Assembly (NCBI GenBank): GCA_003034855.1
Contig: PZKD01000049.1
Location: 1-64,000, forward strand
Reading direction: 5' to 3'
Origin: an archaeon SCG-AAA382B04
Lineage (GTDB): Archaea; Halobacteriota; Methanonatronarchaeia; Methanonatronarchaeales; Methanonatronarchaeaceae
Length of the DNA: 64,000 nucleotides
The notes below the pieces were generated by a model that was given only the letters and a program-made list of their open reading frames with translations, had not been told where the DNA came from and made no database searches. Shown piece after piece: positions 973 to 59,467 of the stretch (position 1 is its first letter; each line of letters starts with the position of its first letter). The position numbers were made by a program, and so were the translations under genes.

Positions 973-1414
973 TAATTATAAAGTTGGAAGCAGAAAACTC
1001 GTGTCCTTTTAGAGCACTAGATGAATGCTTAAGGAACACTTAAGTTATTTTGGGAACTATTTAGGAGTAACTGGCAGTTGGTTGGGAGTCTGCCTCTATC
1101 AAAAAGCAATCCCACGCCCTTTTTTGGGGAAATGGGCTAAATGCCTCTAGGACCAGCATCGAGAGGTGCATGGGTAAGCCCGAAGTAAATGTAGGGTGTA
1201 GTGGTAGCGTGGAGCTACTGGGGAGAATAAGGGAGCCACTGCGTAGCTAATATATGGGTTTTTATGCCCTAATCCAGCCTTCTCCCGGAGCAATAGTTCC
1301 CTGTTGATTGGGTGTATGAGACAAGCCCGATGGAAAGACAAACTCCTCTTTGGATAAGGTCCGCAGGGAAGCTCACTCCCTTCAGGGAGTGGGTCACTTC
1401 ACCAACCTATGTCT
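973..1414. other. Non-coding structured stretch between cdc48 and larC
   Basis: No coding potential is seen between 907 and 1455. On the plus strand a TATA-like box (TTATAAAG, 976-983) would start a transcript near 1003. GGTTGG (1080-1085) can close with CCAACC (1402-1407), and GGCAG/CTGCC and GTAGC/GCTAC hairpins lie inside. The 3' side ends in a strong palindrome listed separately. Read on the minus strand, the same region starts with that palindrome and shares ATACACC and AGCTCCACGCT, in the same order, with the omega-RNA candidate at 57.8-58.1 kb. It may be a free-standing RNA gene or a remnant of an IscB/TnpB-type element. SRP or RNase P hallmark motifs were not found. Strand is undecided. 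Confidence 0.45.
1366..1408 (-). repeat. Transposon-end-like palindrome, copy a
   Basis: On the minus strand the order is GTGAAGTGACC, then a 7-bp stem CACTCCC/GGGAGTG with a UGAA loop, then GCTTCC. GAAG/CTTC can extend the stem. The pattern (GTGAAGTG or GTCAACTACC, hairpin, CTTC) recurs at 57750, 57804 and 21257. It resembles the subterminal hairpins of IS200/IS605-superfamily elements as generally known. No transposase gene is left here. Confidence 0.5.
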
Positions 1415-44475: not shown

Positions 44476-44760
44476 CTACACCCTATGCATTTGTCTAAAT
44501 ATTTTTTCATATTGGACAGTTACTCTCACACCTTGATCTTCCCCAACTTCTTGTAATCCCTCTTTTATCTCCTCAAAATCTTTATTGGATTCACTTATAT
44601 CTGCAAATAGCAACATTGTAAAAAGTTCACGATCAACAGTTTGAGAGATGTCTAATATGTTCACGTCAAATTCTGCTAGCTTAGATGTTATAGCTGCCAC
44701 TATGCCTGGATGATCAGATCCCTCTACAGTGATTACTAAAACTTCTTCATCTTCTGCCAA
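44476..44760 (-). CDS. ACT-domain protein (UPF0237)
   Basis: A 94-residue single-ACT protein: [34 protein letters not shown] (landmarks GSDHPGIVA and NILDISQ) and [20 protein letters not shown] domains bind amino acids, and this family is linked to DUF711 proteins. The start is a TTG with AGGT about 10 nt upstream; that site lies at the 3' end of the structured RNA region (44769-45174), so the RNA may be its leader. Confidence 0.88.
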
Positions 44761-44768
44761 AATAATTA

Positions 44769-45174
44769 CCTGGTACTGAGAACCGTAACAAGCGGTAAGA
44801 AACCGTGTACGGTTGCTTCCGTTTATAGCCTCTCGCCCAAGTGGGCTTATAGGCTCCCTGTTGGGTTCTCTTCACACCTAAGGTAGGTGAACCGCTACCA
44901 GGAATTACAGTCTCCCCTCCAGCTGAACCATCTCCAACTGGACATAAACACCTTTCGGCTGAACCGATTGTTCTCGAGCTTTCCACCCCAAAAGAGGACT
45001 GGCACGAGTGCTTACGGTTCATCCCTTTACGGGAAGGAAGGTCTCTCATCAGCCCCCACAGGCTCCACGAATGCACCCGATGGCTGGGTACACTCTCCTT
45101 CTCCTCTTCTCCTTCCAAAGGTCCAAAGAGCAAGGTCTTTAGCCCACAGAGGTGTTCCGAGGAACCCTATCCTC
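44769..45174 (-). ncRNA. Structured RNA of about 406 nt, unidentified (gene or long leader)
   Basis: There is no protein-coding signal between trm-G10 and the ACT gene. On the minus strand a TATA box (CTTTAAATAG, 45204-45197) is followed 25 nt later by GAGGATAGGG, a standard start distance. The sequence is dense in perfect small hairpins: GTTCC/GGAAC, GCACTCGTGC, TCCCGTAAAGGGA, CGG-TTCA-CCG, CCAG/CTGG, CACCT/AGGTG, GCCC-ACTT-GGGC and AACCGTACACGGTT. A helix CCTGGTA/TACCAGG closes the last 130 nt. It is less AT-rich than its flanks. Hallmarks of SRP RNA (GGAAG.AGCA) and RNase P RNA (AGGAAAGTCC, ACAGAA) were not found. A leader controlling the ACT-DUF711 pair is the alternative. Confidence 0.6.
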
Positions 45175-45196
45175 ACTATTACTAACACCTCCTTAC

Positions 45197-45204
45197 TATT
45201 TAAA
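45197..45204 (-). promoter_or_regulatory. TATA box for the 45-kb structured RNA
   Basis: CTTTAAATAG overlaps the trm-G10 stop codon and lies 25 nt before the first hairpin of the RNA. Confidence 0.6.
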
Positions 45205-46198
45205 GTTCACTGCTTCTCCTCCTAATTACTCTAATTATTCTTGTTAAACTCCGATGAACCCTCACCTTATATCTTTCAATTTCATTTGTATCAACCTTTA
45301 AATCAACCCCTTCCTTTGGGGAAATGAAGCACAAGTATCCACCTTTTTTTAGGTTCCTCAGCGCTTCTCTAATCGTTTGATTATACAAATCGCTAATATC
45401 TCCATATACTGTTGATGAACGCCCATATGGTGGATCAGCTATTATTGCCTCAAAGCTATGAGGTTTAAATGGTGTTTTCCTCGAATCTGCTAGTATTAAG
45501 GAATTTTTTTTGTTTTTAGTTAATTTTTGGTTTTTCTTTGATCCTTTAAGCATCTTTAGGCTAGCATCAACTCCAACAGAACTTATATCCATATCATTTG
45601 CTTCGATTAGGAAGCTTCCAGTTCCAGAGAATACGTCAAGAATTGCCCCATCTCTTACTCTAGTTAAGTTAATGCAGGCTCTAGCTAATTCGGGTTTTAT
45701 TGCCCCTGGCTTGAAAAAAGGCCTCTTATGGGGTTTTCTCTTTCTATATTCTTTTCTGTTGATTTTAATTATTTGTTCACCAAAAACTAGGTTTTGATCT
45801 GTTAAAAACAATTTAAAAACTTTTTTAGGGTTCTCTAAATCAATCGGGCCTTTTATAATTGCTCCAATTCTTTCTTCAGCTTCTTTTGCGCTTATTTTTT
45901 TTAAATTATTTTTTATTCTTTTAGCTCTAACACAAAACTTTTTGTTCGAAGAAATGTTTTCTATATCCTTTAAAACATCATTTAATTTTTTAGCAGAAGT
46001 AATATGTTTCAAAACACTATGCGTATAACCAAGTCTTTTGAAAAAACTTTTTTCTAACTTATCGTTTGTTTTTATTATTAATAGATTAGTTAATTCCTCT
46101 CTAATTTTATATTCTACCTGATATGCTTCTATTAGAGCTTTCACTTCTGCTTTCGCTAGTTTTGGTTGTTCACCTGATAACTCAAATAGATATTCCAT
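45200..46198 (-). CDS. tRNA (guanine(10)-N2)-dimethyltransferase (Trm-G10 type)
   Basis: Methylates G10 of tRNA. The 332-residue protein has an N-terminal THUMP domain (about 1-150; starts YLFELSGEQPKLAKAEVKAL, contains CVRAKRI). A Rossmann methyltransferase follows with RKPHKRPFFKPGAIKPELARACINL, ILDVFSGTGSFLIEA (SAM site) and the N-methylating motif IIADPPYGRSS (about 257-267). Complete. Gene order is prs, DUF357, trm-G10, with 0-4 nt gaps. The downstream TATA for the RNA overlaps its stop. Confidence 0.93.
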   Translation of the reverse strand: MEYLFELSGEQPKLAKAEVKALIEAYQVEYKIREELTNLLIIKTNDKLEKSFFKRLGYTHSVLKHITSAKKLNDVLKDIENISSNKKFCVRAKRIKNNLKKISAKEAEERIGAIIKGPIDLENPKKVFKLFLTDQNLVFGEQIIKINRKEYRKRKPHKRPFFKPGAIKPELARACINLTRVRDGAILDVFSGTGSFLIEANDMDISSVGVDASLKMLKGSKKNQKLTKNKKNSLILADSRKTPFKPHSFEAIIADPPYGRSSTVYGDISDLYNQTIREALRNLKKGGYLCFISPKEGVDLKVDTNEIERYKVRVHRSLTRIIRVIRRRSSEL

Positions 46199-55876: not shown

Positions 55877-55963
55877 GGGCCCGTAGCCTAGTGGACAGGG
55901 CACCAGCCTTCTAACTTCTTCGGAGAAAGCTGGTGATCGCGGGTTCAAATCCCGCCGGGTCCG
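55877..55963 (+). tRNA. tRNA-Arg(UCU) with a 14-nt intron
   Basis: Full cloverleaf: acceptor GGGCCCG/CGGGTCC with discriminator G, D stem GCCT/GGGC, anticodon stem CCAGC/GCTGG, T arm GCGGG-TTCAAAT-CCCGC, and a 5-nt variable loop. The loop CTTCTAA gives anticodon TCT at 55910-55912. A 14-nt insert (55914-55927, ACTTCTTCGGAGAA) lies between positions 37 and 38, the usual archaeal intron site; spliced length is 73 nt. CCA is not encoded. Confidence 0.96.
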
Positions 55964-59404: not shown

Positions 59405-59467
59405 TTGGCGCGATGATGACCTTGGCCTGTCTGATTTGTGATGAGGATTTTGAGTGCTGAGCGCCAA
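59405..59467 (+). ncRNA. Box C/D guide RNA
   Basis: All four boxes are present in order: C ATGATGA (59413-59419), D' CTGA (59431-59434), C' GTGATGA (59438-59444) and D CTGA (59457-59460). They are framed by a terminal helix TTGGCGC/GCGCCAA. The D' guide is 59420-59430 and the D guide 59445-59456 (GGATTTTGAGTG). By the N+5 rule the D guide selects the wobble C of CUCAAAAUCC, which looks like the anticodon loop of tRNA-Leu(CAA). The D' target (ACAGGCCAAGG) is unknown. It would act with L7Ae, Nop5 and fibrillarin. Confidence 0.85.

Follow-up and report, generated by a model that had tools for sequence, protein, structure and literature searches.

The gene pair and the structured stretch between its members

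The window, that is, the whole 64-kb stretch of the SCG-AAA382B04 genome analysed here, carries an RNA methyltransferase gene upstream of an ACT-DUF711 gene group, and reading from the methyltransferase stop codon one meets a perfect Shine-Dalgarno sequence (AAGGAGGTG), the element described below and then the ACT gene (Table 1). The stretch 44769-45174 has a G+C content of 53%, against 36% for the 64-kb window, in line with the preliminary description of this DNA, which had noted a structured region richer in G+C than its surroundings. Its structured nature is likewise borne out: the minus strand is predicted to fold at -159 kcal/mol (z -3.2), a value reached by none of 100 dinucleotide shuffles, compared with a z of -2.3 for the plus strand. 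Most of this signal resides in the 3' 176 nt (z -4.1); the 5' 230 nt contribute little (z -2.0).

Two details of the earlier description hold in part. At least eight perfect hairpins had been counted; we find a modest excess for hairpins with arms of at least 4 bp (12 observed, 6.8 expected, P 0.01), but not a significant one for arms of at least 5 bp (4 observed, 2.1 expected, P 0.15). The 7-bp helix CCTGGTA/TACCAGG, reported as closing the whole stretch, does exist but encloses only its 3' third (44769-44902, 134 nt). Because of the folding energy and this closing helix, P1, the RNA strand of the element is probably, though not certainly, the minus strand (45174 to 44769). An open frame of 128 aa spans the element and gives no Pfam match; this, together with a 1-nt difference in length between the window copy and a second copy in the same genome, argues against a coding role. 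The data support a structured RNA, above all in the 3' domain, and the stretch is probably RNA-coding.

Table 1. Features at the methyltransferase-ACT junction, with positions in the window
Feature	Position	Strand	Basis or remark
THUMP/UPF0020 RNA methyltransferase gene (Trm-G10 type)	45200..46198	-	Pfam UPF0020 6.1e-23
TATA-like TTTAAATA, outside the element	45197..45204	-	overlaps upstream methyltransferase stop codon
Perfect Shine-Dalgarno AAGGAGGTG	45186..45194	-	sequence; now ~425 nt from ACT start
GTAAT, left copy of possible 5-bp target duplication	45178..45182	-	chance ~0.03
Inserted element, candidate boundaries, ~408 nt	44770..45177	-	same gene pair without it in both class relatives searched
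Variable 5' half, relative not found	44945..45177	-	family-genome comparison; weak fold
Conserved 3' module of the RNA	44769..44944	-	89% identical over 177 nt to C54:3266-3442, same genome
Closing helix P1, 5' strand CCTGGTA	44896..44902	-	pair probabilities 0.71-1.0
Core common with Ca. Methanohalarchaeum HMET1	44769..44877	-	79% over 114 nt
Most conserved hairpin (helix 4 of consensus)	44788..44826	-	17 pairs; 94% of cells paired, three copies
Closing helix P1, 3' strand TACCAGG; provides AGGT ahead of ACT start	44769..44775	-	
GTAAT, right copy of possible 5-bp target duplication	44765..44769	-	chance ~0.03
ACT-domain gene, TTG start	44476..44760	-	Pfam ACT_6 2.2e-14

Copies in Methanonatronarchaeaceae and their neighbourhoods

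Three copies of the family are known, two in this genome and one in Ca. Methanohalarchaeum thermophilum HMET1, which represents another genus of the same family, Methanonatronarchaeaceae; so far, the element has been seen in this family only. The second copy (contig C54) corresponds to the last 176 nt of the window copy, and the HMET1 copy (C2:381358-381471) to its last 109 nt. Homology ends at TACCAG(G) in all three, and P1 is conserved at each locus, as CCTGGTA/TACCAGG in the window, CTTGGTA/TACCAGG in the second copy and ATACTGG/CCAGTAT in HMET1, the outer pair being C-G in two copies and A-U in the third. The second copy has a marked fold on the RNA strand (z -4.2; complement -1.2), and the HMET1 copy folds no better than shuffled sequences (z -0.8). 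With three sequences only, the covariation values are reached by 105 of 500 shuffles, and the substitutions between the window and second copies fit the fold, which was taken from the window copy alone, no better than randomly placed ones.

A covariance model (R1) built from the three copies scores 129.9 bits for the window copy and 101.5 bits for the HMET1 copy, two of the sequences it was built from; in three genomes of the class and 393 genomes of the phylum it detected no copy beyond the known three. The phage and plasmid collections yielded nothing that convincingly matched the element, and in a loose-pattern scan of genome contigs the extended motif occurred, among the matches listed, in the HMET1 record only. 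Five viral-contig loci that emerged from a scan with a second motif were rejected by the covariance model. A 23-nt match at C45:103502 of this genome resembles a decayed copy, but apparently lies inside a coding gene and was taken as chance. The conservation is restricted to the 3' part of the RNA: identity between the two copies of this genome drops abruptly at 44944, from 89% to none, the 5' 230 nt of the window copy have no above-chance match in either genome of the family, and no relative of the second copy's 5' half was found either.

The neighbouring genes differ at all three loci. The second copy stands directly before hepT, apparently within a broken mntA gene, the order being a fragment resembling the start of mntA (Pfam E only 0.07), an RNase H-SWIM gene, the RNA and a possible mntA end in frame. 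This arrangement suggests that the copy disrupts mntA. As a separate observation, the hepT/mntA toxin-antitoxin pair in C54 2220-3490 may have lost its antitoxin partner. In HMET1, the copy is flanked by a radical-SAM gene on one side and, on the other, by the 3' end of a histidine kinase gene that it faces; an unrelated tnpB-less IS200/IS605-like repeat directly adjoins the copy. As to conservation in relatives, which the preliminary description had proposed to check, the 3' module is thus present in HMET1 (79% over 114 nt), but its position before the ACT gene is not kept.

Insertion between the methyltransferase and ACT-DUF711 genes

The class relatives searched were HMET1 and the third genome of the class; in both, the methyltransferase gene touches or overlaps ACT-DUF711 and no insert separates them. 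Since the gene pair is contiguous there, we interpret the element of the window as an insertion; the two relatives provide the empty site expected of a mobile element. The element now separates AAGGAGGTG from the ACT start, and to judge by its sequence AAGGAGGTG was probably the original ribosome site of the ACT gene; in HMET1, AAAAGGTG lies shortly before the ATG of the ACT gene. The 3' end of the element is set by the end of homology among the three copies, whereas a 5' end at 45177 would follow from the GTAAT repeat. The occurrence of GTAAT at both edges is no more than suggestive of a target-site duplication, and no such repeat flanks the second copy. Neither a transposase tied to the element ends nor a terminal inverted repeat was found, the transposition proteins compared being those of the TnpB loci only.

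The empty site also bears on the promoter. The element had been credited with a TATA box of its own, but TTTAAATA lies outside the inserted stretch, where it overlaps the methyltransferase stop codon, and HMET1 has TTTAAAAGG at the equivalent position, although the element is absent there. Given this overlap and the HMET1 counterpart, the element does not carry TTTAAATA as a promoter of its own.

The element looks like something that has moved rather than like a switch for the adjacent gene. We favour, with somewhat better than even confidence, the reading that it belongs to a small family of non-coding structured RNAs dispersed in Methanonatronarchaeaceae and was inserted here as one copy. 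We propose the following scenario, in which (i) the methyltransferase gene and the ACT-DUF711 genes were separated by the insertion of a copy of some 408 nt; (ii) the RNA would come from the minus strand, probably through transcription running on past the upstream gene or starting at a weak promoter nearby; (iii) the 3' domain (134 to 176 nt) would fold as a closed multi-branched unit and is kept, while the 5' half varies from copy to copy. The insertion relative to the class relatives, the two further copies, the common 3' end and the conserved closing helix are observed; both the production of the RNA and the spread of the family by mobility are inferred. A bolder version, a modular mobile archaeal RNA with a constant folded 3' domain and fixed end, exchangeable 5' halves and no protein of its own, perhaps using an RNA-level mechanism, is speculative and in our view rather improbable. 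If the RNA is made and its 5' half varies by design, the family could represent a new modular or mobile type of RNA; otherwise, it is a lineage-specific repeat. The inserted-copy reading would add a new structured-RNA family for a little-studied class of halophilic methanogens and one case of a conserved gene pair split by an insertion.

Alternative readings and known RNA families

The main rival is a free-standing gene for a trans-acting non-coding RNA of this lineage; it would have a paralogue elsewhere in the genome and would have changed place between genera without a mobile element. We regard this reading as a serious candidate, although we would not expect it to be correct. Such a gene would account for the conserved 3' domain, the low folding energy of two copies and the common closing helix, and it fits the failure to find transposon features. 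Its high G+C content would also be ordinary, as the SRP RNA gene (57%) and the RNase P RNA gene (46%) of this genome are similarly rich. On the other hand, the 5' halves of the two copies in the same genome are unmatched, no copy keeps its neighbours, a promoter within the element was not identified, and one copy apparently lies inside the broken mntA gene.

The likeness to RNase P RNA and SRP RNA is that of a large, G+C-rich structured archaeal RNA and goes no further. The element is unmatched by archaeal RNase P RNA (RF00373) and archaeal SRP RNA (RF01857) up to E 10, and the genome carries both elsewhere, at C53:8677-8972 (218.5 bits) and C43:18762-19078 (215.9 bits), respectively. The covariance-model search thus agrees with the first reading of this DNA, in which no signature of either RNA had been recognised. 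More broadly, no match of the element reached the gathering score in Rfam 15, including its group I and II introns, riboswitches and sotRNAs; only two hits appeared up to E 10, at 19.1 bits (cut-off 60) and 14.5 bits (cut-off 40.5), which is chance level. Elsewhere in the window, Rfam places a match to the Pyrococcus C/D box RNA family RF00095 at 59409-59463 (+; 48.4 bits, just over the cut-off of 45) and an 87-nt tRNA at 55877-55963 (+; 61.1 bits) that was missed by ARAGORN.

That the element is, as first suggested, a very long leader sensing an amino acid, here at the 5' end of the ACT-DUF711 mRNA, where it would control readthrough or translation, appears very unlikely. This reading has the location in its favour, which the element shares with amino-acid riboswitches and leaders: as originally described, 8 nt separate the element from the ACT start, which is a TTG at 44760, and the AGGT ahead of that start comes from the element. 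However, ACT-DUF711 occurs without the element in both class relatives, and elsewhere the same 3' domain precedes hepT or, in the HMET1 copy, faces a kinase gene from its 3' side; these locations of the second and third copies are unsuited to an ACT-specific leader. A riboswitch match above the cut-off was not found either.

About as unlikely, in our assessment, is a divergent omega-RNA or a tnpB-less IS200/IS605 repeat of the type abundant in both genomes. The element resembles IS200/IS605 omega-RNAs and their tnpB-less derivatives (haloarchaeal sotRNAs RF02656/RF02657, PMC12558985) as a dispersed structured RNA of a few hundred nucleotides in related archaea, such a repeat adjoins the HMET1 copy, and the word GTGGAGC is common to the element and the repeats. 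In contrast to them, it has no sequence or covariance match, no palindromic right end and no TnpB partner. It is matched neither by a profile HMM built from 45 repeat copies nor by a covariance model built from 32, the best overlap in an unfiltered covariance search (4.3 bits) does not exceed hits in neighbouring genes, the typical right end is not seen, and 30 TnpB loci show no similarity to it. In the flanks read of the second and HMET1 copies, there is no TnpB. Homology of the 5' half to the repeats, hinted at by short common words, was ruled out by the same profile HMM and covariance model. The element is not part of this repeat family.

The repeat itself is about 480 nt long and occurs dozens of times in HMET1 and several times in this genome, including a copy at window positions 1055-1402 (+). 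Its ends resemble those of IS200/IS605 elements, it lacks tnpB, and its core, which has no Rfam match in the five loci scanned, lies directly behind the TnpB gene at one TnpB locus (L256; 107 bits). Across 32 copies, covariation is strong (observed values reached by 0 of 500 shuffles, a result that related copies can produce). The most plausible interpretation of the repeat is a tnpB-less element whose core resembles an omega-RNA. HMET1 carries a very high load of TnpB, with 89 zinc-ribbon domain matches in a 2.1-Mb genome, some of which have internal stops or lie in short open frames.
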